In this document: positions 167 to 30,900 of the stretch, one piece after another
Numbering within the stretch: the first letter of the stretch is position 1
How the letters are laid out: each line of letters opens with the position of its first letter
Source: Branchiostoma lanceolatum
Taxonomy: Eukaryota > Chordata > Leptocardii > Amphioxiformes > Branchiostomatidae
Assembly: GCF_035083965.1 (NCBI RefSeq)
Contig: NC_089735.1
Coordinates: 10,070,001-10,134,000 of the forward strand
Direction: 5' to 3'
Length of the DNA stretch: 64,000 nt
Notes under the pieces: model-generated
What the model saw: the letters and a program-made list of their open reading frames with translations, nothing else
What the model was told of the DNA's origin: nothing
Databases searched by the model: none
Program-made: the position numbers and the translations under genes

Positions 167-3100
167 GATGACATCATTATGGGCACCCTGACAGTCCGTG
201 AAAACCTGGAATTCTCCGCCGCCCTCCGCTTACCCACATCCATCTCACACAAGGAGAAGAAGGAGAGAGTCCGCCAGGTGTTGGTAGAGTTGGGGCTCAC
301 GCAGTGTGCAGAGACCAAGGTATTTAGGGTTAAAGATATGCAATGCAGTGTCATTGACATTTGTCAGTAGTGAGACTATGAAATAGTTTTCATTTAAAAA
401 AGTTTTCCTAACATTCTCTCTCCACGCTTTCCTTCACTATAAACTGTTATTGAACATTCTTGATCTAACATCTACCAACATGATTCCGCCACCCTTAAAA
501 GATACATCCAAACAAATCTCCAATGCAACATCCCCAAGTATCATGCACTCCTGTATATCTAAACTGTGCATACCTGGGGGATGCTGCACTAACTTACTAA
601 GAGATCTCTAAAATCCACAGTTTTCCAAGGTGCAAATTTATGTAACTCGGCAGATTAATGTAAATGGAGGCTACTATATATAATAGGTAGATTAGAATTT
701 CATTTTATCAAAGGTAATTACCAAATGTGTATGAAACTAACTGCATCATGTACAATGTCCCTGAGACTGACACATACAAAAATTGAATTGTTACTGAGGC
801 CTTCTCATAGATGTCTTGAACACCTGGATATGTAAGGTGTATATTTTGTACATGCCTCGGGGATTACTGATGCATAAAGTAGATCTCTTTGAATTCACTG
901 GTTTTTTTTCTGTAATGTGGCGATCCCTATACTATCCCTATATCATTGATATAGCAGTGATGTCAAGTTAGAAGTCCAGGAAGACTAGTGGTGTGCCTTA
1001 GGGCACATCACGTATGGATATTCTAAATAAACAAACAAACAAATACTGGGTAACCTGGTTGGATTAGAGGTTTGTTGTACATGTAGTTACTACATGTATT
1101 TAGCATTATGCATAATTCTTGAGGTATGAAAAATGCAATATCTATAATTTCAATAATTCTTGCTGCAGGTTGGAACAGAAATGATCCGTGGCGTGTCGGG
1201 TGGAGAGCGTAAACGGACCAACATCGGGATGGAGCTGATCACAGCGCCGCCTGTCCTGTTCCTGGACGAACCAACCACAGGCCTGGACGCCAGCACGGCA
1301 AATGTAGTCATGATGCTCTTGCAAAGGTGGGTTGAGAATGTAGGATTCAATTTCACAATGCAACAGTAACCATCATAGGTGGCATTGATGGCTGATGTTT
1401 TAGGCTATTGGACATGTGGATCAAGAGGTTTTGGGTTCCTGGCTAGAAGTTGTCTCCCTATAGTATAGGAAAGGTACTTAACACAACTTTCCTTCCTCCA
1501 CCCAGTAAATTGGTACCTTAATTTGTTTGGAGAGGTAAAAAGACTGTGAAAGGAGAGAGAATCAGATGCAGGGCCCGCCATCCAATAACATACCCCACAC
1601 CGTACTTTTACTGCGCCCATGGCCATACAAGTCTATGGGACGTTGAGTACCTTTTTTACCTTACCTAGAATTAAAAGTGTCATTATTTATTAAAAGTGTC
1701 ATTGAATGTGGTCTAGAACTTCAGAAGTTGCTTTTCGGGGAACAAGTACGAGAGTGAGTGAGTGAGTGAGTGAGTGAGTGAGTGAGTGAGTGAGTGAGTG
1801 AGTGAGTGAGTGAGTGAGTGAGTGAGTGAGTGAGTGAGTGAGTGAGTGAGTGAGTGAAGGAAGGGTTATGTCCAAAGTGCAGTCAATTATCTCTACTATC
1901 CATACCAGATATAGCTTCAGTCATTCACTCACTATCCAGTGTAATGTCTTCTGTTCCCCATCATCTACTAGTAGGGGTTTTACGTGCTTTCACATTGGTT
2001 GGGGGGTGGGGTGGGGGCTAATACATTCAATACATTTTACACCAGCTAGTCTGCCTGGCGCTCCACTGTGGATTGTCTTGTTTCAATTTTTAATAAAGAT
2101 AAAGATTCAATATATTCTGTTACCTTCTCTACACCTTGTTAGTAAACAAACCAAATATTTTTTAGGCTTTCGCAAAGAGGCAAGACCATCATCTTTTCCA
2201 TTCACCAGCCCCGATTCTCCATCTTCCGTCTCTTTGACTCCCTCATGCTGCTGGCCAATGGGGAGGCCGTGTACCATGGCGCAGCTGATCAGGCCTTGGA
2301 TTACTTTAAGTCCATCGGTGAGTCTCATGTGTGTGATCTGTAGAGTTAGGTCTGAACCTACTGTAAGAGTGTGGTTCAAGCGCCTAACTGGTCCAGACCT
2401 TTTAGCCTAGTGGCAAGTGTACACATGTGTTTGAATGGTGCATGACTACCCGGGTTCGAGTTATACAGTCTCTTCACTCCGGGGATCAAACCCAGGCCAA
2501 CCCAGGCCAACTCAGAACAAGGCAAATTGTCCTTTAACCTAAGGAATTGCTAAAATTGTCTTGTCTAATTTGTATTGTCCAGGCCATGAATGTGAACTTC
2601 ACAACAACCCAGCTGACTTCTTCCTGGACGTGATCAACGGTGACTCCACAGCTGTGGCAGCCGTCATGAAAGACATCGAGAAGGAGGAAAAAATGGAAGG
2701 TAAAGAAAAATGTGTCAAAATGATATTTTCCCCTTAACATTTGACCTAGAATAATCTCATATGTCATTGTGGAATATTACAGTACTGTATTCTTCTAAGG
2801 TACAAGAGCCAATTGTTATTACATTTGTACTTGCCAATGATTTGATAACATTTAGCTACCTTTCTCAGGGTTTAATAGACTCTTCAAGTCCTTGCCACAT
2901 TGTGCCCTAGTGGCAAGGTTGCAGGTAGTAGTAGAGTTCCTTAAGCCAGGTAAGGAATTCAAAGATAGCCTTAAGGTAAGAGACAATTGATATTGACATT
3001 GCGAGTGTGATTGTGAGCCAAATGACAAAGAAGAACAGGAATTAAGACAAATAAATCGCATCCTTAAATGCTTGGGAAAAACTTCATTCTATTTTACATC

Positions 3101-6100
3101 CTGTATTTTGCAAACTGTATTTTACATATTTTTCCCCCAGAACTATCAGTTGAAGTCCTGAATGACAACAACAAAAAGGACAGCACCAACAGTGAAAACA
3201 GCAGTGTCATGTTGACCCAACAGTACGCAAAGTCGAGGTTCTACCAAGAAACCATGGCTCAGTTAGAACCTCTGGTGGCAAAACAGGACACTCTGGGAAC
3301 CAAATACACCAAACAGGAAGTCAGTTACAGGACCAGTTTCTTACACCAGGTATGTGGACACCAATGTATACACTGCAGTTTCTGTGTGTTCTGCCAGAGG
3401 GTGCTACTGCCTGTTAGGCATTGCTTGTGAAAATCATTATGGCCACATTTCTTTCTGAAATTCTTCCCTAGATGCATTAACCTAAATGCAGTTCTTGAAG
3501 AGGAACAGATAAGCATTGAGTGTGTGTTAGAATAATCAAATATTGGTTTAACTTACTCCACTAAACTAACAACTAATTGTTTGCAGTGTACTTACTTTTG
3601 GTTCTCTGTATCCTTTTCAGTGCAAAATTGTGATCAAAAGGACAGTGAAGAACTTAGCGCGTAATCCACAAGCATCTGTTGCTCAGGTTTGTCTAGTTTT
3701 TTATTCTAATATAGTCATGATACTCATTGCACAACCGCCACAGTGTCTTTGCATAAAACAGGAGAAATTTGCTTGCCAATGTTTCGATTGACCTTGCTCA
3801 GGGACCTTCCTCAGGGAACTTATGGCTGGTTTTATTTGAACTGCAGCTAGATGGCGCTGCAGTGAGACAACTGTGGTACCAAATGTGACTAAGCTTGTAT
3901 CCCCCCTCATCACGGCTCATGCCTTCAATAAACTTTCAGATCCACACTTAATACAATTTACACTTTGTATTAAGATCTAATTTGAGATTCTACCCTGTTA
4001 CTTTGTTCTCATAAATTGACGGAAAATTGTGAAGATATTAATGTTTAATGTAAGAAACATAATCATTTCAGGTGATGTTGAACATCGTCTTTGCCTTGAT
4101 CATCGGCATCATCTATCTACAAATAGATGACAGTGCATCCACTGGTGTTCAGAACAGGTTAGTAGTGTCTGCATATGATTCATAAGATTTACAATATGTT
4201 GTTCCCTCCCTCTCCCTACCCATTGTTTCAGTTACTTATAAGTTTTGTTGTTGATTTTTTTTTTTTACACCAGGCTTCCATAACTTTAATTTAAAGCTGT
4301 AAGTGTGCAAATTAACTTCTTGTGCATTTTGGTTGTCTTACATGTCTAACATGAAGGTTATTGTTACCCTGCGTCTAAACCAAAAAGTTGGGAGTTTGAT
4401 TCCCAGCTGTTGGCGCTAACCTGACATGCACGCTACTGGAAAAGGGTCACAGTCCTTAGGACGAGCCGCAGTCCACTTTTCGTTTACTTGTCGAAAAGGG
4501 CTAGGGTAATTCCCCTGGTACAATGAATATGTAAATTATACTGTACATAGTGTCTGTCTTCTCTGTCACAACCAATGGAAGTATATCTCTTCCCTCAGGT
4601 GTTTCCCTGAAGAGATATTGTAAGACTTCCATTGGTCGTGACAGCTAAACAGGTTCAAGATCACTAATTCTCCTTTCAATTCCTTCATATCTTCTTATTC
4701 TCATGGTCATGTTTATTTTGCAGTCTGCCCCCATGTATATTTATATTCAACAGCACAGCACATCAGTAGCCCCTAACATAAAAATCTTTTCTCCATATAG
4801 AACTGGTGTGTTCTTTTTTCTGGCCACCAACATGATGTTTGGAAGTTTGTCAGCTGTGGACCTTTTTGCCAGAGAAAGGCAAATCTTTGTGTAAGTTTTT
4901 TTTAAATTTTCTTCTTGAAACAATAGTGGTTTAATTTTTTTTTTTTTTTTTTTTTATGCAGGAGTGGTGTGTTCTTTTTTTTTGCAACAAATCTGACGTT
5001 TGGCAGCGTTTCAGCTGTGGCCATTTTTGCCTACGAAAGGTCCCTTTTTGTGTAAGCTTTTTTTTTCATCTTTTTGCATGATTTTTATTTTTGTTTTCAT
5101 TTTTTCTTTGGTGTTTTTGAATAGTTCTTATTCCCTAGTCTGTAATCAAGTTGATGACATTCTAAAAGTAATTGCTGAAATTGTTTAACTGGTAGTCACA
5201 CTTTAGTTGAGAAACACTTTTTCTAAGTTACAATTTATTCTGAGTACTCTATAAAACTACAATCAATCAAATTGTCTTCATAATGCTGCAAAACAACAAG
5301 AATCAAACTTGAAAAAAAGATAAAAAGGATTTCAAGACTTAAAAAATAATACTGAGCACAGTCAGCATTCCATTTGTCAATCTCATAGTTTTTGATTCGG
5401 GTATCCCACAGGAGTTTTTGGTATCCCACAAGATCTTGGTATCCCACAGGAGTTTTAGGTATCCTACAGGAGATATTGGTATCCCAAAAGAGTTCTGAGA
5501 ATCTCACAAGATCTTACTGTGTGTTTCATGTATAATTCATCAAAATGAAATTGAATCATATTAATTATATTATACTATTATTATATTATCATATTATGAT
5601 AACCTCCTGCCATCCAATGAATACCTGCTTTGTTGCCTAAAAGTTTCTACAGTAGAACATGCATGTTAATGTATATTTTTTTTAAATATGAATGATGTTG
5701 TTTGATTTTTTTTTAATTCCCTTCAGCCATGAGTCAGCCAGTGGTTATTACCGAGTGTCCACCTACTTCTTCTCCAAGATCTTCTGTGATGTCATCCCTA
5801 TGCGTCTCATCCCTGTCACCATCTTTGGTGTCATCGCATACTGGATGATCGGTAGGGACTTATTGCTTTGAAAATCCTTTGACCTTGCCTCTGGACCAAG
5901 AGGTTGGGAGTTTGAATCCCGGCTGTAGATGCTCACACTGGGACAGCCCTATGTTCCTCCAAACTCACAACTTCTTGGTTCAGAGGTTGAAACTTTGAAA
6001 CATGTTTTTTTTCTCCCAGTATTCTACATACTCCACAGTGACATCTTCTATCATCTCTTTTTGAAGATATCATCATGTGTATAGATATTCTGCCATCACT

Positions 6101-9100
6101 ACCAGTGCTCCATGTATCATTAAAGAAGACAGGGTTTATAATTGTTCGGTGGTTACTTTTTTTGGAGTTTTACAAAGGGCAAGTAAACTCTTTTATAGTT
6201 ATGATCCTGACCAATGGTAATTACCTTCGCCGAGAAGGTTATGTTTTGCATCGCCTCCATGTGGTGTGCATCTGTTAACACGGTAAATTAAAAGTATTAG
6301 ATATTGGGCCCCTAGCAACTCTCTATGGTACTGCAGCAGAGCTTCCAGTTTTGATATCTCATGTTCTGAACATGCTATGGTCATGATTTCGGAGTGGTTG
6401 ATAGCACTCGTGAGGGAGAGTAAGTCGTGTGGGTTTGGGCCCCCAAGCGAGTGTTTTGGAACTGCAGGAGCCGATTTTGTTTCAAACACTTTATGTAATA
6501 TTCTCCTCTGATGCATCACCACAGGGTTGCGACCAGAGGTCACTGCCTTCTTCTTCTTCCTCCTGACGTTGTTCAGCACCACCATGGCAGCATCCAGCAT
6601 CGCCTTCGCCATCAGTGCCACCACACCCATCTTCCAAGTCGCACAGATCTTCATCACTCTGGCCTTCATCTTCATGCTGGTAACAGCTTTTTTTATTTGT
6701 TTATTTTGCACAACTTCAAAACCAATTTGTACAGGGAATACATTGAGCTGCGTAAGACCAGACTGTAAAGGCTGTGTTCATTTGTTTATTTTGCACTGTT
6801 AAATCAATTTTGTATAATATTTAAGTACATCGAGCTGCATAGGACCAGACTGTAAAGTTTTATCCACTCATACCATGAAGAACCCTTACTCTTATTGATA
6901 AGTGTGATGGGTTCTTTAACATTTAACAAGATGTGACTCTTTTCACTTTTGGTTTGTGGGGCCTCTTATCTGAGAGGATGCCCCTAACGGAAGCTGTAGT
7001 TTCTCATTTTCAGCCTATAAGGAAATTAAGGTTTAAGTGCTTTTCCCATGGGTGCAATATTGTGACCTGCTACAAAGATTCAAACGCAGAACCTTTACAT
7101 GTAGATGCTAAATGTCAACAACTGTAACCAGATGACCACCTTGCCGCCCATCTAAAGAGGAAATAACTAATACATAGACAGATTATATTTTATAACTATA
7201 TATTACATGTTCACCTCTTTGTTATCCCTGAAAATATCTATATTTTCCTTATCAATCCAGATAAGAATGTGCATGGGAGTTGTTTTCAATGTATGACTGA
7301 CAAATTATTTACCATATTTCCTCAGTTGATGGGAGGTTTCCTGGTCAACCTGAAGTCAGTGGGACCCTGGATCAACTGGCTGAAGTACTTCAGTATCGTC
7401 AGATACTGCCTTAATGTACGTGCACATCATTTGCTTCTCAATAGTTACTGTTACAGTAACTGTAGCTCTCACAGAAATTACAACTGTTATGGAAAACACA
7501 TAACTCCTCTTGAACAAAAACTGTCTACTGAATGATGTTTTTAAACATTTTCTCTGTTATTCTTGAATTTTTCACAAATATCCTTACATACATGTAGTGC
7601 AGTGGGAATCTTTAAATTCTTACATACTACAGGTTGTGTTTACCCTTAAGCACTCTGAAGTAGTCGTTTGGCACCCAATTCGCTATTGGTTACAGAGTCA
7701 GGCAGCAGGAAGAAGGTTAAAGCAGTCTAGAATATTGAGCATGGCCTGTCCTTGGTGCTGAATTGGCAGTTTTTACCCTTGGCTTTGTTGCACAGGAATC
7801 AGAAAAGAATTTACATATCTCTGACATGATCTTATAGGCTGACAATACAAGGCAGATGCCTTGAAACAACAATGTTTTTAGGTTCTAAATATTAATTTTT
7901 AATACAGGTCACATACTGTAGATTCTGACATTTTTGTTGTGTTTTAACTCCTCACACTGCGAACACTCTTATGTTACTATGTACACAGTTGGGTATTCAA
8001 AAGGAATGTTGATGCTTTTTAGCTCCTAGTATTCATTTCAAAAGCAGCAAACAAACTAGATTTTTGAATTTTTTGCTGTATTTTTAACTCCTCACTCTGC
8101 AAAGACTGTCTTCTGTTGCTATGTACACAATTGTCACAACCTTGCATTAAAATAATACTGCAAAATCTCAATTGTAACTGAGCCTTAAAATTTAAGCGCT
8201 GCAAATTTTAATTAATTTCACAGTCCCAACATTTTGTACCATGTTCTAGGGCCTTTCCAGGGCAAATTTAGATTTAATTTAGTTAGAGTCCTGACATTTT
8301 GTATATTTCCCAGGGCCTTTCAAAGGCAAAATTAAATGAAGTAACTGTTACAGTTAGAGTCCTGACATTTTGTACCATTTTTCCACGGGCTTTCCAGGGC
8401 AAATTTAAATGATTTAGAGTCCTGACATTTTGTACCATTTTCCAGGGCCTGACCATCCCAGAGTTCCGTGACCGCCTGTTCTGTGACGCGGGTAACATCA
8501 CCAGTACTGCAGCCCCTGTAGGGGAACCCAACGTAGCCGGGTCTGTATGGTGAGTACCATATAACATCCATGGGTATCTCTCGGCCAGGTTACATTATAT
8601 ATATGCTCCTTTGAAAAATGGTGTATGTGAGTGATCTCTAGTGCAGCACCTCCAGGTATGTACAGTTTAGATATGCATTTATACTGGATAATGTTGCACT
8701 GGAGATATCGGGAGAAATCTTTATTGACACAACAAATTTAAGTACAGCGACTTTTGTAAGGTCTGCTAAATCTTTTCATACAGTCAAGTGGATACAAATG
8801 AATTAACTTAATACACAAATGGATAGTATGAGTAAATCAACATGTTGAGTCCAACGTATCATTTTCCCAATTTGTTCTAAAGTCTCAACATTCTCCTTAG
8901 ATGAGGATGCATTTTCTCATCTCTATATCGACCTGCCAGAACTATGTTTGTAGACATTACTAACAAAATTCAAAAATATGTACTATACAGGACTTTGGCT
9001 TTGAAATTTCTTGCCCTTGAGGAATTTACCTACAGTGCAGTAGCCTGCATGAAAGTGCATGATAGTAGCATACATTGTCAGGCAATGCCTGAAAAGATTT

Positions 9101-9703
9101 GGCATCCATTAGGTTAACTAACATTTAGTAGATTAAATCTTAACTGTCTTCAACATTTGTTTTGAATTCACTTCACAAGTATCATAACACTGTTTGCTGG
9201 CACATGTACACATGTAATCGGCTAATATGTCTTTGTGCCTTTTAGTGGTTTGCTCTACATAATGCTAATATATTATACTTTGGCGATATGACTTCATCCT
9301 AGGTTGCTTTGACAGCATAAAGTCCTTGAATTTGTTGAAACTACACTGTCTTCTGTTTAAATCTTTGCCATGTTATTTTTGGGAATCATGTAATTGCATT
9401 CTCAATATACATTGTTCAATGCTACATTCTTTTCATCCAAAAAAGTTTATTTCACTGTATCAAAATGTTCACACTATAAAGGACAGGTGTAGTAGACAAT
9501 GGAGATTTTACATCGTAGTAATAATCATTGACTTTCCTACTCTTTCCTATTTCAGTGTATCTGGTAACACGTACATGACCGTACAGGAAATCGACTACAC
9601 CCTGTTTGGACAGTGGAGTAATATTCTGGGCCTGTGGGGCATCACCATCATCTGTCTCACCCTCTGTTACATCCAGCTGCGAAGGATCAAGAAACTCAAG
9701 TAG
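167..9703 (+). CDS. ABCG2: ABCG2-like ABC half-transporter, 5' end missing (13 exon positions in window)
   Basis: Exports hydrophobic substrates as a dimer of half-transporters (family knowledge). Coding exons read here: 167-319, 1169-1326, 2166-2317, 2583-2699, 3141-3349, 3621-3686, 4072-4157, 4801-4890 (alternative 4962-5051), 5727-5851, 6525-6679, 7326-7415, 8446-8549, 9556-9703. All have AG/GT borders and matching phases, giving 550 residues that end at the TAG at 9701-9703. The first exon begins just after the expected Q-loop glutamine, so Walker A and the start lie upstream of the window. Seen: signature VSGGERKR and Walker [13 protein letters not shown] (exon 2), H-loop SIHQP (exon 3), [17 protein letters not shown] (exon 4), then six membrane helices, with TM6 in the last exon. 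The order and length match vertebrate ABCG2 from about residue 127 on. In the last extracellular loop, two cysteines (FCDAGN, SVCVSG) and a sequon (NIT) align with human Cys592, Cys608 and Asn596. The interchain Cys603 has no counterpart. Confidence 0.93.
483..675 (+). mobile_element. Short inverted-repeat element, ATTCCGCCACCC family, copy 1
   Basis: Starts attccgccacccttaaaag and ends near ttaatgtaaatggagg. It aligns along its length with copies at 34674-35112 and 42867-43055, in introns of TMEM175 paralogs B and C. The start is complementary to a ttcaaagtggcggat block seen in the better-preserved copies. Confidence 0.65.
1380..1660 (+). mobile_element. SINE-like repeat, probably tRNA-derived
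   Basis: Contains ggatcaagaggttttgggttcc, resembling a tRNA B-box region, followed by ggaaaggtacttaacacaactttcct and a caccc(a)gtaaattggtacc block typical of invertebrate SINE bodies. It lies in an ABCG2-like intron. The family cannot be named without a search. Confidence 0.4.
1753..1857 (+). repeat. (GTGA)n microsatellite
   Basis: About 26 uninterrupted gtga units in an intron of the ABCG2-like gene. Confidence 0.97.
4371..4550 (+). mobile_element. SINE-like repeat with tRNA-like B box
   Basis: Contains aagttgggagtttgattccc, nearly the same as aggttgggagtttgaatccc at about 5900. Two copies of a tRNA-related head within 1.5 kb of introns suggest dispersed SINE relics. Confidence 0.4.
4564..4643. 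other. Compact ~80-nt intronic hairpin
   Basis: Arms TGTCACAACCAATGGAAGT and ACTTCCATTGGTCGTGACA pair with one mismatch. Inside them ATATCTCTTC pairs with GAAGAGATAT, leaving a small loop. It lies in the intron just before the alternative TM2 exons. It could be a miniature foldback element or a pre-miRNA-like hairpin. Confidence 0.6.
4801..4890 (+). CDS. ABCG2: ABCG2-like gene, alternative TM2 exon copy a
   Basis: A 90-bp exon with a ccatatag acceptor and a gtaagt donor. It is entered after two bases of a codon and left after two bases, so it can be swapped or skipped without shifting the frame. It encodes TM2 of the transporter, including [15 protein letters not shown]. By alignment with human ABCG2, its Asn and the Phe three residues later correspond to Asn436 and Phe439 of the substrate cavity. 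Its twin starts only 71 bp downstream. Confidence 0.85.
4962..5051 (+). CDS. ABCG2: ABCG2-like gene, alternative TM2 exon copy b
   Basis: A second 90-bp exon of identical phase and length, with a long poly-T tract, a tgcag acceptor and a gtaagc donor. It encodes a variant TM2 ([15 protein letters not shown]). About 19 of 29 full codons give the same residue as copy a. The aligned cavity residues (Asn436 and Phe439 equivalents) are kept, and no stop or frameshift is present, so it looks like a functional alternative exon. Inclusion of both copies would also be in frame but would duplicate a membrane helix. Transcript data are needed to decide usage. Confidence 0.75.
5398..5515. repeat. Minisatellite, ~19-20-bp unit
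   Basis: About six degenerate units around ggtatcccacaggagttttt in the intron after the alternative TM2 exons. Confidence 0.8.
5878..5950 (+). mobile_element. SINE-like fragment
   Basis: Shares the accaagaggttgggagtttg block with the element at 4371-4550. It is truncated and intronic. Confidence 0.35.
6690..6860. repeat. Tandem duplication, ~85-bp unit
   Basis: Two copies of a unit beginning near tttgtttattttgcac and ending with gagctgc(g/a)taagaccagactgtaaag, directly behind the exon that ends at 6679. Confidence 0.75.
7646..7720. mobile_element. 75-bp TTAA-bounded repeat
   Basis: Begins TTAAGCACTCTGAAGTAG, ends GAAGAAGGTTAA, and contains cgtttggcaccc and ctattggttac. A related copy lies at about 35665-35738 in TMEM175 paralog B, so it is a dispersed short repeat. 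Confidence 0.5.
8221..8450 (+). repeat. Four degenerate tandem units ending at a splice acceptor
   Basis: Units of about 60-67 bp built on gtcctgacattttgtaccat and ttccagggc(ct). The last unit supplies the polypyrimidine tract and AG of the exon at 8446-8549. Confidence 0.8.
8705..8790 (-). mobile_element. LINE 3'-tail relic
   Basis: aatctttattgacac...agtacagcgacttttgtaaggtc matches, in the same orientation, segments at about 36432-36490, 49050-49130 and 50172-50220. It also matches the tail of the LINE remnant at 34797-35080 on the other strand. Confidence 0.55.
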
Positions 9704-11545: not shown

Positions 11546-12775
11546 TATTCGGATTCTACTTGTTATTTTCTTTGTTGATATATAATTTTATGTTTAACTT
11601 TCGCAAGGAAAAGTGGCGCATTGGTTAAGCTATATAACTTAATATATTATACTCTCTAACATCATTCAAACGCATAATGTCGTCAGAATAGACGTGTAAC
11701 ATTTAGGTTGTTGTGTAAGACATAATGTGATTCCAATGTAGTTATGCATGGTGTAAGATCAATTGTGAGATAAGAATTGCCTGTCTGTAGTAAATAAATA
11801 GCAAATTTCATAGCTGTGACCGAGATTAACAGAACAATACTGAGACAATTATCATTTGGCGGAAGGTACGTGTTTTAGGTCGAGTAATAGAGTGTGGCCA
11901 TGCCTGCATCAACCGCAAATTAAGTCTCATTGCCGATGCAACGCAATCTCAGAAAGATTCACCCTGCTCTGAAATCCAGTCTTTCCAGTCGTTGAACTTT
12001 TCACCCAATACTCAGTGGCACAGGTACAGGACAAGGTTACATGAGGTTAAAGCCACAGGATCTATTGTTGCGTGTGTTGACGTCGACTCTGTTCACATGA
12101 AGCCTGTGTCCCGTATTTCTGTAAGTCTTTCCTGATTGATCAGAACAGAGTCGGTTGCTTCGTTTCTGTTCTGTTCAGATAACAAACAGCGACTGAACAA
12201 GTCGCTGATGACTCAACATTCGATGTTACTGTCACGGTACTCTTACTGTGTTCGTTGGTCGTAAAGGGGTCAATACTACAGCAGGAATGGTGGGTATTTT
12301 CAGGTAAATGAACCATGATACAACTGGTGATCTTTAACCCATGGCATGCATATGAACTTTGTCACCACGCAACACATCCTCAGGCGTGACATGCACAACA
12401 AAAAGGGAATGGTCGATTGTATCGTTTGCTCGTATGGTAAGTGCATACTATTAACTATTCTGTTCTTATAGTAGTAAGTTATGTAGCTATACGTTTTTTA
12501 AAGGTACTTTGATCACAGTACTCATCATTTGCAGAAAGAGCTTAGTATTTAAAGTCACAGAATCAAATGACGTCATTGATCGAGAGACAATTTATTTAAA
12601 ATGGGACTTGCCTAAATAAATACACGGGGGGCGTACAGAAGCTCCCACTGTAATTTATGAGTAAACTGGGGCGTTAGTTCACTTCTACGGACGAACTTGG
12701 GCTCTCTAGTTTGTACGATCGCATTATCAACCGTCACATGAACGTCATTTCTAGTATTTTACAGAATAGGAAAAC
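11546..12775. other. Intergenic stretch between ABCG2-like and CARD/B-box genes
   Basis: No coding exon or RNA gene recognised. It must contain the promoter and any 5' UTR of the CARD/B-box gene, but I see no clear TATA box at a useful distance from its ATG. Confidence 0.5.
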
Positions 12776-14449
12776 ATGGCTGGCGAGGACACAGGCGACC
12801 CACGGAACTTACTCAAGCTCAACAGGCGATTACTTATCAAGGATATCCGTTCAACCGAACCTATATTAGACCACCTCTACCAGCACAGCGATATCACCGA
12901 GGAAGAGCGAGAAGAAATACAGGGAAAGGCGACGCATCAAGAAAGGGCGAGAACGCTGTTGGACATCGTCGCCACGAAGGGTAAGAAGACGTACTATCAC
13001 TTCCGCGAAGCCTTGAAGACACTGTATCCCCACTTGGAAGAAATCTTACACCGATGTCCCTTGCATAACGCGCGACTCAAGCTATACTGTGAAGTGTGCG
13101 AGTGTCTGATATGCATGAACTGTAAAGATCTACACAGGACGCACACGGCAACTTCTGTTCTAGCAGTCGCTGACGAGGTCAGGTCGAACTTTTCCTCTTT
13201 TGTTCGAGAAAATCGCAGAAAGCTGGCGACTAAACATGGCCAGGAAATCAGTGATCTAGAGAAAAAACACCTCGGGGTCTGGGTAGAGGCAAGAGCGGCG
13301 CATCTACAGGCACAGGTCACCAGACGGATCGAACAAGAGAAAGAGTGGTTTATTGGGAAGTTGTACCAACGGCCAGGCTCGGCTATCTCTAGCGTAGCAG
13401 AGTCAACCAACTTCGACCAACCCACGAGTCTAGAAGAACCGCCAGGCGACAAGAAAGAACAGTGTTGGGTGACAGGATATACACTGGTAAGTTGTAACGT
13501 TACATAATTTGTAACGTCTGGCTCGTAAAATGACGGTTTGCTAAACACAAGCGGTATTCAGGCCCTTTTGTTCGCTGCATAGTTTTACTGCAGAATAATG
13601 CACAGTCATGGCACAAAGTCCAGATACCTCGGGCTAACATGTTCCGCCTGAATTCTTGACTATGAACTTGAAATAGACCTACCTAAGCTAGGTGTGTGCC
13701 TTATTTACACAAAGAAATGCTTTTCCAAGAAGTCATGCTTTCGGATCTATGTGTTTGTGCATCCTTGTGCATGTTTATGTGTGAACAGCATGACTGACCA
13801 GAAGTTTTGGATGGATCTTTATTATGATGGTACGTTGGTATATATCGGCAAAAACAAAGGAAAGCTTTGATGATTAGCCTCCTAGCGGAATTTTAAGGTA
13901 CTTCACTAGAACTTCTGTTTGTTGTGCCCAACGATTTTATGGTCACATGCTATATTTGGTCATGGTCTCGATAAGACCTAATATAAGTTCGGGTTACCAA
14001 TAGCTAGGAGCGGGCTTTTTTTGTTACAGACTTTGAAAGAGGACAACTCGTATCCGCATCTTACAGCTGTATCATAATTGAATGCATATAACGGTATGTT
14101 AATATTTTACTTTCAGGGCAAGGTGGTCCATTGTAAGCTGTGTATAAACATCGGTAAGGTGGCGGAGGTTATCCATGAGAACCCGTGGCTTCCCCGAGAC
14201 GATCAGCGGCTCCTTCAGCGGGTGATGACGCTAGTGCTGGAGGAACCACGCCAGGTCGTTTGGTACGACGCCGAAATCACAGTCCACGGTGTGAGAATAT
14301 CTGGTCTCAAGTTCACTGCAGGCGACAAGACCAATAGATTCTTTGTGCATCTAGTAGACGTTGGAAAACCGCGTAATGTATGCGAAAAAAAGAAATGGCG
14401 CAAAACACAATACGGTGACGTTTTGATATGGTCTGAGGTGACAAAATAA
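12776..14449 (+). CDS. CARD / B-box / coiled-coil protein (two coding exons)
   Basis: Exon 1 is 12776-13486 (donor gtaagt) and exon 2 is 14117-14449 (acceptor tttcag), joined in phase 0 to give 347 residues. The start ATG sits in aaaacATGg and opens the reading frame. Residues ~10-92 form a helical CARD-type death fold (LLKLNRRLLIKDI, then a DHLYQHSDITEEEREEI helix pair). Residues 94-123 match a type-2 B-box exactly: C94-x2-H97-x7-C105-x2-C108-x4-C113-x2-C116-x3-H120-x2-H123. Residues ~125-205 are charged and helical, a likely coiled coil. The C-terminal ~110 residues (exon 2) are not a domain I recognise. No RING finger precedes the B-box, so it is not a canonical TRIM ligase. A role as an adaptor in innate-immune or apoptotic signalling is inferred from the CARD. 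Confidence 0.8.
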
Positions 14450-14480
14450 CACTAGTAACTCTATATTTACAACGCAATTA

Positions 14481-14665
14481 AGAATATCTGGTCTCAAATT
14501 CACCGCAGGACAAGACCAATAAATACTTTGTGCATCTAGTAGACGTTGAAAAACCGCGTAGTATATGCGAAGAAAAGAAATGGCGTAAAAAACAATATGG
14601 TGACGTTTTGATATGGTCTGAGGTGACAAAATAGCACTTGTATCTCTATATTTTCAAAGCAATTA
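14481..14665 (+). pseudogene. Decayed tandem copy of the 3' end of the CARD/B-box gene
   Basis: This segment repeats 14291-14478 (end of exon 2 plus its 3' flank) at a period of about 188 bp with scattered substitutions. A 2-bp deletion (gcaggcgacaag to gcaggacaag) breaks the frame, and no splice acceptor was copied. It is therefore probably only 3' UTR of the intact gene. Confidence 0.8.
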
Positions 14666-15740
14666 ACGACCTCCATGACTACGGAGGTTTTGTAATCGGT
14701 GTAATCAGTGTTTGTTTGTTTGTGTTTGTCTTGGGGTGACCTCGCAATTTCGTGAATATTGCAAAGTGGCAAGGCGGAAGTGGTGTAATAGGATACTTGG
14801 AGAATTGGTTTGGCTTGTGTCCAATGTGCCCGATTATGTAATGGGTATATCACTAGTCTTTATTGTCTTTTTCTTTTACTTCAATTTTACCACAAAACAA
14901 GGCTCATAAGAGCCACTCACATATTTTGGGTTACTGTTCTGGACTGTGATGACAAATGTTTGTTCACCTTTGACTGAAAAGTTTAAGCTTGTACCCATCA
15001 TGGGAACTTTATGATCATATTTTTCCGCAGTTGACTATTTCATTTCATCTCGTTTAGATATCATAAACAAAAAAATAACTGATTAATGGAAAACAAAGAA
15101 AATGAGCCAGACTATGCATGTTTTCGTTTACACCTTAAATATAAAATAAATTATAAGAAAGATTCTTTGATACGTCCAAACAGGAATATCTTCAATAAAG
15201 TCAAGCAACCATAACATACACCCAAACAAGAATGATGTAATCAGCGCTATGATAACTATGATGACAATAGATAATGATTATTGTTAGTTTGCAAATTATA
15301 AATCAAACACAAAACATCAACACACTCAGTAGTACTGTCACAAACACAATGATAATAACATAATAACATAATAAAATAGGACCAAGGTAAGCTAGATTTA
15401 GAACATATGGAATGCCCAGTCAGACTGCGCACATTTTTTCTAGTCTCTCTCTATACATACAAATCACCAGGAAAAGACTTTTGCCGCATTCCTTTGTATT
15501 CATAAAAAGTTTCTTTACTCTCTATCAAATACTGTGTGTGCTTCTTTTAGTGTGCTTTATACATAAGAAATTGATAAATCGAAAGATACAATAGAATACT
15601 TATTATCACGAATTGATATAACAATTTTCCCACTTCCACCAAATTTTTTATGTAAAAAAACAAAACAAAGAAAACTGTGCAACTTTTTTCCTTGTGTATC
15701 CATTTCTTTATAACTGTATCGCAAGAGGAATGCAAAAAGG
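14666..15740. other. Intergenic stretch between two convergent genes
   Basis: AT-rich with no supported coding sequence. It lies between the 3' end of the CARD/B-box gene (+) and the 3' end of TMEM175 paralog A (-), so it should hold both terminators. I could not pick a clear poly(A) signal for paralog A. Confidence 0.45.
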
Positions 15741-18700
15741 TCACACGGCTGTGATGTCGTTCTCGTGAACCCTGTTACTCGCTTTTGAGTTGTATTTATT
15801 CGCAGGAAGGTAAGACATCTCAGGGTCTTCTTCTTCTTTCTCTGAGGGTCGTTTTTTGTCCTCTCGCCTCTGAAATAAGTAATTTACTTCAATATCATAT
15901 GTTTTGTATCAACAGAACGTATACGTAGTAAAGAAATATATTGAGCAAAAGCCTATACGATGTACTTGATGGCCAGTGTTAAGCCCCAATCCACTGGACC
16001 CGCGGCACGTTGGCGACCACGCCTCGACGAGCGATTTGACAGAGCACTCAACGAACTTCATCGATAGAAAACGAATCTTTTCACGCTTCGTTTGTTCTGT
16101 TGTCTTTTTAGTCATACTTGTACGTTTTGCATGAAATTCCTATTATAAAGTCAAGGGTATCACACATCTAGTTTATAAGTCGCAGCGACGCCGTCAACGT
16201 ACGTGCCGCGGGTCCATAGAGATAGGTGCTTTACAGTTTCATGCAGGGCCACCTTGCGATCCTTACGAGAAGTGAAGTCTACGGACGCCTCACTACCACC
16301 ATACATAAGGTAGCCTTACCTGCACACAGTTGCGGACAATCTTGATGATGATGAACACACCCGGAGTGGAAATTTGCACCTGCGATAGCAAATAGTAAAA
16401 CTTTAAGACATAATTTTCTTCAAGTGAAATTTAATTTTGAAGCAATCTTTCCCCTTATTATAAAATGATGAAATCATTGATACAGAAAATAGCAAATGAA
16501 GAATGACTATAGCTATTAGATTACTTGTACCAATTACTTTATTACATCAGGACAAGACGACAGCATGCTGTCCCCAAATATGATCATCTTGTGTCAAGAC
16601 CACATCACAGAATAATTTCTATGTATGTATTCATGTATGTATGTATGTATGTATTCATGTAGAAGAAATGTATTTATGTATTTTCTGAACAAAGTTTTTT
16701 AAAATTTTAGAATTTTAGAAAATTAAAAAAAAATCACAGAATGGTAGTAATAAATGCTACTTAGAAATACATACCCAGTTGATGACTTCTGAGTCGAACT
16801 TCCAGGTTGGAACAAAGCACAAAAGAAACAACAGGAGACTAGAAAATAATAATAAAAATGTAAAAAGTTTCCACAACCTAATTCATTATCTAAAATACAG
16901 CTACACCGTTCCGCAATGCAGTGATAATCTTGTACTATCAAATACTTTTCAATCGCATTAGCATTACGTCTGGTATGTAGATTCTAACCGGGATAGACGT
17001 AAAGGCAAATATACGACACCTTACAGTATAAGGGAGTGTAGGTAACCGTAAGGTCAGAGATTAAAGCCCCAAAGACGAAAATAATATCCACGTGGCCAAC
17101 ACGTCTGGACAAAGGACTGTCTACAAATAAGGGACCGTAAACTTTGACCTTACTTCCCAATGCATCATACTCTACATGCGCACTTACAGCTATGATGTGG
17201 CTTATTGCCTTTCCTCATTGGCGTCTAGCATGCGTCTTGCAAAGTACCGGAAAATGTAACATTAGTAACGGAAAATGCTTTATACAGAAGATGCTCACCT
17301 GATGGTGGGGTACACACACAACCTGATAATCATGAACGTGTTCATGTATTTGTCTTCATCGTCATCATCGAAACGCCGGTGAAGCAACTTCGACCTTCGA
17401 AAAGAAAGAGGCAATGTTACATGACCTTGAAGTATAACTCATACACTTAAAGCGTTTGTTGTTCACATGTGTGAGTATTGCGACGTGTATTCGGAATGAA
17501 TCATAGAAGTTTATCTTTGAAATATATTTCCTTCTTCATCTTTATCTTTTACACATTAAGAACGAGCAAGTCATGAATATACCACCCATGTTGTTCGCTC
17601 GTGATGTAAGGTAAACTTCAAATTAAACGGAAATCTTACTTGTTTTTCATGACGATGATCCACATGACCAGGTGCCAGATGCTAGAAAACAGCACCGTGC
17701 CGGCGTTCAGCTGTACAGCTATGGCAGCGTCACCTGCTGACACCTGTGGATAAGACAACGAGAGATAACTGTACATTACGACCTTTTATTACTAAAACCA
17801 GCATCGGATGTACATTTTAGTACCAAGGACAGGGCCAGTTAGGCCATTTAGTACCAAGGGCAGGACAAGATAGGCCTTTTAGAACCAAGAACAGGACCAG
17901 TTAGGCCGTTTAGTACCAAGAACAGGACCAGTTAGGCCGTTTAGTACCAAGAACAGGACCAGTTAGGTCGTTTAGTACCAAGAACAGGACCAGTTAGGTC
18001 GTTTAGTACCAAGAACAGGACCAGTTATGTCGTTTAGTACCAAGGATAGGACCAGATAGGTCATTTAGTACCAAGGACAGGATGAGTTAGGCGGTTTAGT
18101 ACCAAGGGCAGGACCAGTTAGGTCGTTAAGTACCAAGGACAGTTCCAGTCAGGCCTTTAGTACAAAGGACAGGACAGGATAGGCATTTTAGTACCAAGGG
18201 CAGGACCAGTTAGGCCTTTTAGTACCAAGGAAATAGTATCTTATTTTTCTGATGCGTCTCCGCATTCATTGGTATTGTTTATATGTAATGTGTTTATCAC
18301 TAAAATTGTATTCAATTTTTTTATCCTTACATACTAGTATGCCATTTCAATTGCTAATGTATTAATTTCAATTGCTAATGTATTAATGGAACACAACTTG
18401 TAATGCACGCTTGAATTGTCCCATTGACTTAACAACAATTGACTTGTAAAGAATATCTCAGTTACAAGTTGATCTATGCAGCATACCTCTTTTCCGAATT
18501 CTCCGGTAATCTTAAACACGATCGGAAGTAGTCCAGCAAACATAAGGGCCTGTAGATGACAAACATGGAGCTGTTATACCATCTATACAAACTAATACAA
18601 GCTATAAATTATAATGGAACGGATCTCAAATATACATTGTGTCAAATGTGTCCAAAGGAATATTGAGAATCAGGATTTTACTGACCAACTTGTTGAAAAA

Positions 18701-27914: not shown

Positions 27915-30900
27915 TTACAAGGAAGTGGACTCGACTTCCACTGGGTTGTCGTACCCCTCAAGATCCTCTTTCGTTGGTCCATCCGGTTCCCCCTTGCCGC
28001 TTGAGAGTTCTTCACCAATATCACCGATTTCCGGAGATTCCTTTGGTTCACTTTTCCTCACACACCTCTGTAAAATAGTTTGTATAATTTCTGTGTGATG
28101 AATGTGACCTTTTTGTCCAATATCACTGTAATACATCCAGGAAGTCAAAATAAGAGCTAGGTGAACAAATTATTTTTAAATATTCTATGTCGAAATTAGA
28201 TCCATTTTCAAACACGCGATAGTAATTTCAAACAGCATAGAAATGTTATACATGTACCTGAGTCCAGTTACGCAGAAGTTTCAGAAGTATAAAGACCGCA
28301 ATCAAGGCAATCTGTGCCTACAAGAAGGATCAGAAATAAGATACAAATAAAAATTGTAATCTTATCTATACCACTTGATTATAGTATGATAATTGTAAGC
28401 TGTAATCCAATGATATGAATTGATTCTATTCTTCAATTTCCTGGATGACTAATATTCACAAACTTATAAAAAAGGATAGCAAAGGAAACCAATACACGAG
28501 GTGTGCACAATTTTGTGGCTTAAGTTATGCGAACGATTTCATCGCGCTAACATGTCATATGTTTGAATTCAACTGGTCATTAGCGTATACTAAATGTTGA
28601 ATATTATAACGTTTACGTTTTTAAGAAAATTTGAAATATTGTTCAAGTGAATCATACCCCGTTGATCACAGCAGAGGGTACAGGAATGGCGAAACAGACG
28701 CAGAATATCACCAAACTGCAAAACAAAAATGTGCTGTTTCACTTGCACTGACAGTTACACTGCAGGGTATAAATATTCAAAAATAATTATATATACGTAG
28801 GGATAGTTACACTGCAGGCATAAATATTTTATAATGATTATAGATATGTAGGGGCATTTACACTGCAAGGTATAAATATTTAAAAACAATTATAGATATG
28901 TAGGGACTAATTTCATCATTGATTTGAGAACCAGTAAATTTACCTGACAATGGGATAGATCAGCAAGTTCAGGTACATGAAAATACAGTCATGTATGTCG
29001 TGAGCAGACGGTCGAAGCAGCTCGGACCTAGAGATGACGGTATCAAAAGAAAAAACATAATTTTATTTCATGACGTATTGCTATCACGTTATGGAACTGC
29101 CATACAACTAGTCTCAACATACTACATTGTACACATAATCCATTGGCTATAATGGATGGAAATGATAATCTAAGGCAAATAAACACATTGTGAGGAAAAC
29201 AAAATATAATACAAAACATGAAATATCGTACTCACCAAGTAAACAGTATTACTATGAAATTGAGCTAATGAATTTTACATGTTTGCTTGCAGAATAATGG
29301 TTACATAGCGACGCCATATACATAAATAGAAAAAGATACACTCACTTCTTGCTCATAGCTGTGATCCATATTGCGAGAAGCCAAACACTAGCCATGAACA
29401 CCGTGCCACTGTTTAGTTGTACAGCTACCGATGAATTCTGGTTTCGCACCTGATGTACTCAACGATATCAAAAGCAATCAGATATTTGGCAACTTATAAA
29501 GACTTTAATTTCATGTATACCGTTTTCTCTGCTACTCGATTTTTAGTCAACAATGCTCAAGTTTAAAGACTGCAATTTTAAATGGTTAATTATAAACCTC
29601 TTGTCTATTGTATTGTTTTATAAACGTTTTTATTTTCTATCTTCACAGGATGGCATCAATACTCACCAAATGCCCGAACTCCCCAGTCAGCTTGAAGACG
29701 ATGGGGAGGTATCCAGCAAACAGAAGTGCCTGCCAAAAAGTAAAAAAAATAGTTAAACTATCGATTATCAAGACGTAAAAGACAAACGTATGACATACAT
29801 GTAACTCAAATGATATCAATTGTATCTGTATTGTCTATATTGTACAATCGAAAGTACGCAATAGTTGCAGAGTGGACGTAAAAAATGTATTTCTAATATG
29901 AGTCAAAAGTAGATCAGGAAAAACATCCACGGAACAAAAAAATAAACAAGAAAAAGACAACATATCTCACCAGCTTGTTGAAGGTCAACAACAGCGAGTT
30001 CTGGGCACGTATAAGCTGTGGATTGTGGGATAGAAAATTCAAATTCAATAGTGAAACAGCTATTACCACAGTAATTGTGGTACAAACGTAATTATTAGTG
30101 TAAAATGTAACCTAGAAATCAAAGACGAAAGAATGGTGATAATGATGATAGTAAAAACAGTTCACAATAGATGATAAAGGCAACCTTACGTAGAACATTG
30201 AGTGGTGCAGGTACCACAGGAGACCTGAGGTAGACAAATGGGTATCTTTTAGGCAAAGCCAAAACTTTTGTAAGATTTATCATTAATCTGCCACTGTAAG
30301 GTGTAATATAGCCTTTTAGTTACTGTCAGGTGGTTCCAACTATACGACACGTGATACTGACTGCACTGTCCTTGGTACTGAATCCACCGTCCCTTGTACT
30401 GAATGTACTGCCCTTGGTACTGAATCCACCGTCCTTTGTACTGAATGCACTGCCCTTGGTACTGAATGCACCGTCCTTGGCACTGAATACGCTGCCTATA
30501 TGGTACTGACTACACTGTCCTTCTTACTGATGACAATGCACTTGCACCTGACTACGCCGTTCTTGATTGTGACTACGCTATCTTTGATACTAACTGCGCT
30601 ATCCTTTATACTGAATAAACTTTCCTTGATATCGACAACACCGTCTACAGAATACTGGCTATTTCGTCTTTAACCCTATCCAGACTGGGCTTTTTTGGTA
30701 TATCTGGGACTGGGGGGGGGCTGATTCGGCCCCCCCCTCATAATTTCCGAACGGTATGATGTATCTTCACCAAATTTGCAGGGAGTGATATTCACATCAA
30801 GTTTAATAATTCCTGTAATTTTGGTGACGTTATGACGTAATATGACGTAATTATGACGTCATCGATGTGATTTTATTGGCTAAATAGGGAATTCCAGTAA

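Follow-up and report, generated by a model that had tools for sequence, protein, structure and literature searches.

Among multidrug pumps, ABCG2 is one of the main ones, and the way in which drugs are selected at its entry gate is a matter of debate. In a 64,000-nucleotide stretch of the Branchiostoma lanceolatum genome (contig NC_089735.1, positions 10,070,001 to 10,134,000, forward strand; hereafter the window), an ABCG2-like gene carries two adjacent exons that both encode the second transmembrane helix (TM2). Does the gene use them as alternatives, and if so, in what would the two proteins differ? Our preferred answer, to which we assign a probability of about 0.6, is that a lancelet-type ABCG2 underwent a tandem duplication of its TM2 exon and kept both copies as mutually exclusive exons. 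A tandem TM2 duplication with signs of coding constraint is supported by the sequence, and two pumps differing mainly at the drug entry gate could probably be produced from this single gene.

The gene lies on the plus strand at 167–9703, with its 5' end beyond the window edge; its first exons, which encode the N-terminus and the Walker A motif, are outside the window. Conceptual splicing at AG/GT borders yielded 13 exons per mRNA within the window (14 if both TM2 exons, termed A and B, are counted). The spliced frame is unbroken for 550 residues from position 167 to the stop codon. The features are as follows.

167–319, 1169–1326, 2166–2317 and 2583–2699, plus strand: upstream exons of the ABCG2-like gene (conceptual splicing, AG/GT borders)
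3141–3349, 3621–3686 and 4072–4157, plus strand: further upstream exons of the same gene (conceptual splicing, AG/GT borders)
4801–4890, plus strand: exon A, TM2 with Asp at human position 446 (open frame, AG/GT)
4891–4961, plus strand: intron between A and B, 71 nt (read from the sequence)
4933–4934, plus strand: branch-point adenines in TTAAT (predicted)
4935–4955, plus strand: polypyrimidine tract of 21 T located 5' of exon B (read from the sequence)
4962–5051, plus strand: exon B, TM2 with Ala at human position 446 (open frame, AG/GT)
5727–5851, 6525–6679, 7326–7415, 8446–8549 and 9556–9703, plus strand: downstream exons (conceptual splicing, alignment to human ABCG2)

The exons from 167 to 4157 encode most of the nucleotide-binding domain, the elbow helix and TM1, and those from 5727 to 9703 encode intracellular loop 1 through TM6, ending with a TAG stop at 9701–9703. 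The gene is ABCG2: the nucleotide-binding domain is followed by the ABC2 membrane domain, and F431, F432, N436 and F439 (human numbering) are all present. Consistently, the Pfam families ABC_tran and ABC2_membrane both exceeded their cut-offs in the spliced protein, and its top PDB match was human ABCG2 at 566 bits, the best non-ABCG2 chain scoring 253. The alignment to the human chain 6eti covers residues 127–653 of 655. The translation also contains VSGGERKR, which we take to be the signature motif, and a stretch that is presumably of Walker B type. No second ABCG copy was found elsewhere in the window by tblastn.

Several other features were seen in the window. Within the introns of the ABCG2-like gene, there is a perfect GAGT microsatellite of 26.5 copies (1752–1857), a 20-nt inverted repeat upstream of exon A (4563–4644; 95% complementary, arms 42 nt apart) that is possibly a small mobile element, and a 20-bp tandem repeat after exon B (5400–5515; unit GGTATCCCACAGGAGTTTTT, about 5 copies). 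A 55-nt repeat, 78% alike, occurs once in the intron before A (4366–4420) and again behind the exon at 5727–5851, in the following intron (5882–5936), and it resembles a dispersed repeat. Just downstream of the gene, an open frame at 12770–13501 encodes a CARD (Pfam, 64.5 bits) and after it a zinc finger of the B-box family (33.1 bits) and perhaps belongs to an innate-immunity gene. At its apparent 3' end lies a 185-bp direct duplication (14294–14666; 2.0 copies, 90% matches), the second copy of which starts right after the stop of the first. Minisatellites are located at 17816–18231 (31-bp unit, 13.5 copies) and 30355–30631 (21-bp unit).

Exons A and B are each 90 nt long, share the same phase, contain no stop and are bounded by AG and GT at all four borders; splicing of the pair to its neighbours would use the donor at 4157 on the upstream side and the acceptor at 5727 on the downstream side. 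They also have their split codons in common, AG|A or AG|G giving Arg on the left and GT|C giving Val on the right. Both encode TM2, corresponding to human residues 427–455 (numbering taken from HMMER alignments to ABCG2), and they share 67 of 90 bases and, in translation, 19 of 29 residues. The differing residues are 427, 433, 437, 438, 442, 446, 447, 450, 453 and 454, and the 23 base differences are distributed as 7, 5 and 11 over codon positions 1, 2 and 3. An earlier note made from the letters alone had described a pair of tandem TM2 exons in an ABCG2-like transporter. Our analysis bears out its gene assignment, its coordinates for A, B, the 71-nt spacer, the 4157 donor and the 5727 acceptor, and its account of equal length and phase, intact splice sites, open frames and 19/29 identity.

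The protein with the B version of TM2 matched human ABCG2 at 563.7 bits and that with the A version at 566.1, and the corresponding Pfam ABC2_membrane scores were 165.7 and 168.7. Scanning both strands of the whole window for TM2 returned A (144), B (143) and a stop-containing next-best segment (40). This gap rules out a chance repeat, and no convincing third TM2 copy exists in the window, as the candidate scoring 40 is interrupted by a stop. At the nucleotide level, the pair was detected as a direct repeat of 117 nt (75% alike) that stops 13–14 nt past the exons, in T-rich borders. With a length of 90 nt, the frame survives any combination of A and B, joint inclusion and joint skipping alike.

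The intron separating A from B is the shortest of 13 in the window part of the gene, the other 12 measuring 265–1030 nt. It contains AG dinucleotides at positions 4, 35 and 70 only, and the only adenines between the AG at 35 and the acceptor AG are at intron positions 43, 44 and 66. Adenine 66 sits 5 nt from exon B, which leaves 43 or 44 as the expected branch point. These two adenines belong to a TTAAT located 27–28 nt before the acceptor and followed by the run of 21 T; adenines preceding position 35 are even nearer to the donor of A. A plausible branch point of exon B is hence predicted to lie at most 43–44 nt from the donor of A. Human mutually exclusive exons are judged against a steric limit of ~50 nt from donor to branch point (PMC5740500 and PMC7969005), and 57 human clusters, 9% of 629, fall under it according to the former source. 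The predicted distance is below this limit, which was derived in vertebrates while the host here is a lancelet. The anatomy of the spacer thus suits mutually exclusive splicing, as had been suggested. In addition, the acceptor of exon B looks strong, with its 21-T tract and CAG|G, and the donor of B (gtaagc) is close to that of A (gtaagt). The local RNA fold around the exons was unremarkable (z +0.45), leaving exclusive splicing guided by RNA structure unsupported; the inverted repeats found comprised a 20-nt hairpin in the intron that precedes A and four pairs of 12–17 nt.

These data suggest how the choice might be made. After tandem duplication of the TM2 exon in an ancestral lancelet-type ABCG2, binding of U1 to A's donor and of U2 to B's branch point would not be possible at the same time, and for this steric reason A would not be joined to B. 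Whether the junctions 4157–4801/4890–5727 or 4157–4962/5051–5727 are made would then depend on factors that bind U tracts, acting on the run of 21 T. Because 90 nt preserves the frame, the product of double inclusion would gain an entire helix and that of double skipping would lose one, probably wrecking the topology of the pump. For the same reason, exclusivity would have to arise from splicing and not from nonsense-mediated decay.

To which part of the pump do the differences between A and B map? The TM2 residues around the central cavity are given in PMC11957596 as 431, 432, 435, 436, 437, 439, 440 and 442. A and B agree at six of these eight positions and show mild changes at two (437 M/L and 442 L/V). 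According to docking in the same source, the entry-gate pocket includes 446, 450 and 451, and only one of these three positions is equal (446 Asp/Ala, 450 Arg/Tyr). Along with 453 Gln/Ser, these belong to the non-conservative changes at the gate and cytosolic end; the remaining one is 438 Met/Thr. F431, F432, N436, F439 and E451 are all retained in B. The retention of Asn436 and Phe439, with differences at 437, 438 and the cytosolic-end positions 446, 447, 450, 453 and 454, matches what the earlier note had reported. Its further proposal that one gene would acquire two substrate cavities is weakly supported. In its favour, E446 faces the central cavity in the homology model described in PMC5653816, which blurs the distinction between gate and cavity; however, most cavity positions are identical and the radical changes occur at the gate, and PMC11957596 positions E446 just beneath the cavity, at the entry gate. 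The swap is therefore more probably one of two entry gates than of two cavities, with B possibly inactive or regulatory. The A and B proteins would have most of the drug cavity in common and differ in the cytosolic entry gate, and the switch would for that reason affect the cavity wall less than the admission of drugs or the coupling to ATPase activity.

Position 446 has been studied in human ABCG2. In PMC5653816, E446K, E446A and E446D all lost mitoxantrone efflux, and rhodamine 123 and Hoechst 33342 were likewise not transported by E446 mutants; the authors state that substrate specificity is unaltered by these changes. Its results report ATPase activity as absent in E446K and E446A and kept in E446D. 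The discussion counts all three as ATPase-retaining, and the source is therefore not fully consistent. Hoechst 33342 was held by a salt bridge to E446 in a simulation (PMC10439158). Exon A encodes Asp at this position (window 4859–4861), and lancelets may compensate elsewhere for Asp446, as E446D is transport-dead in the human protein.

A protein search with the spliced sequence gave 5941 matches, of which the best 120 were examined; the database is clustered at 90%, with one representative for each cluster. Among the matches listed, the closest are two Branchiostoma 'ABCG2-like' entries, identical at 519/550 (94%) and 506/550 (92%) residues, and the remaining 118 of the best 120 share 47–54% identity. 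Position 446 is acidic in all 120, with Glu in 118 and Asp in two, both from Branchiostoma. Ala446 was found in none of them, nor were the B residues at 433, 437, 438 and 450. TM2 in the two Branchiostoma entries is the exon A version (29/29 and 28/29 identical), and B-type TM2 occurs in none of the best 120 of 5941 matches, which represent 90% clusters. One of these representatives, P0001 (Branchiostoma, 'isoform X1'), stands for 6 sequences and another, P0002, for 2; owing to the clustering, B isoforms may hide behind both. A search focused on B retrieved one A-type Branchiostoma protein alone (1 match from 4 candidates). A second such search returned no match among 8 candidates and carries no weight, as A-type fragments were missed too. 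The protein as a whole departs by 6–8% from the Branchiostoma entries, neither of which is therefore probably from the species of the window. Between A and B, 10 of 29 residues have changed, which argues that the duplication predates the species split unless B has evolved far faster. Other lancelets should consequently carry B. We also observed that one match, P0003 from Ophiophagus hannah (886 aa), has two TM2-like segments ~540 residues apart, probably because a pair of tandem ABCG2 genes was merged into a single gene model.

Exon B could instead be a leftover duplicate, never or hardly spliced in and slowly decaying, with A as the sole working TM2 exon. The A-like TM2 of all 120 best relatives, both Branchiostoma entries included, and the lack of Ala446 among them speak for this. 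The comparison of dN and dS between the copies proposed in the earlier note was carried out (dN 0.22, dS 0.64) and does not decide on a neutral B, because a constrained copy paired with a nearly neutral one, with the synonymous changes shared, gives the same values; by itself the ratio is compatible with decay. We therefore consider simulated neutral copies, which started at A and drifted randomly to 23 differences (12 settings, 6000 runs each). Between 54% and 73% of the runs had no stop, and 0.2–26.5% had at most 10 residue changes, each of which taken singly is weak evidence for constraint. Stop-free copies that retained 13 or more of the 14 family positions (B retains 13) made up 0.02–0.55% of runs; this list was compiled with B in view and permits Ile447, found in B and 2 of 120 relatives. 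With a stricter list of 12 positions that excludes Ile447, of which B keeps 10, stop-free copies retaining at least 10 reached 0.75–6.2%. The simulation ignores that the A/B pair was chosen for its intact look. Nevertheless, the frame, both splice borders and 13 of the 14 family positions have outlasted changes at 23 of 90 bases, and the strong-looking acceptor and A-like donor of B also count against a decaying copy. As neutral drift seldom retains so many family-conserved residues, we regard this reading as unlikely.

Doubtful, yet to be taken seriously, is the possibility that B is used without pumping, Ala446 disabling transport and the B protein acting as a regulatory or dominant-negative dimer partner or as an off switch. 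It fits the splicing part of our preferred reading, such that the odds of the two overlap. B could be plain inactive because human E446A lost both transport and ATPase activity (PMC5653816), E446K behaved in the same way, and the position is acidic throughout the best 120 relatives. However, human E446 data do not apply to lancelets in a simple way, as exon A encodes Asp446, with which the human protein is transport-dead; moreover, the source is inconsistent on ATPase activity, and B retains E451, N436, F439, F431 and F432. Rather unlikely in our estimate is the opposite case, a B transporter that is active and serves other substrates although it lacks the acidic gate residue considered essential in ABCG2, in which A/A, A/B and B/B dimers would be three pumps from one gene and B would admit, for example, neutral or anionic substrates rather than cationic ones. 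Non-exclusive use, with A constitutive and B a cassette exon after it, or with either exon skipped, appears improbable. Introns of ~60–70 nt are spliced in some animals, and the frame is kept in all combinations, so that no decay pathway would remove the products. However, with A plus B one TM2 helix would follow another and everything behind them in the pump would be inverted, and a 71-nt intron with a branch point at 43–44 is unfavourable by vertebrate rules in a gene whose other 12 introns are at least 265 nt. An assembly artefact, or haplotypes or paralogues mis-joined, is highly improbable: there are 23 base differences between the 90-nt copies, their similarity ends just beyond the exons, tblastn found no second ABCG copy in the window, and we found no point in support.

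If the mutually exclusive reading is true, a natural exon swap would separate gate from cavity, keeping most of the cavity and removing the acidic gate residue. It would be a ready-made gate/cavity experiment in an animal near the base of the chordates, and a helix of an ABCG pump would be exchangeable by splicing. Vertebrate ABCG2 is not known to carry a tandem TM2 exon pair, and no mutually exclusive TM2 exon pair in ABCG2 was found in the titles and abstract openings of the open-licence literature searched.

The lancelet gene can be set beside three known systems. Human ABCG2 (6eti and others) has both domains and F431, F432, N436 and F439 in common with it; the human protein has Glu446, whereas the lancelet has Asp in A and Ala in B, and the tandem TM2 exons are a feature of the lancelet gene. 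Among insect ABCC genes, those of the CG6214 (Drosophila MRP) type likewise encode ABC multidrug pumps varied by splicing (PMC4234516). They belong to subfamily C, not G, and their origin is unrelated to that of the pair studied here; duplicated exons are the source of their variants. The closest parallel in splicing is exons 4a/4b of OGDH, a different gene with a different function. These form a mutually exclusive pair with a short intron and a branch point near the upstream donor, 25–41 nt away in human and 46 nt in sunfish (PMC7969005), and the branch points, termed distant in that source, together with a large U-rich tract enforce exclusive splicing in human. The long tract before the second OGDH exon, termed mega-polypyrimidine, corresponds to the 21-T tract before exon B. 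In OGDH the branch points were mapped and the splicing was shown in cells, whereas those of A and B are predicted from sequence. Collectively, the comparison suggests that the lancelet pair is likely a new example of a well-known arrangement, in which an exon is duplicated in tandem and steric hindrance makes splicing of the two copies mutually exclusive.
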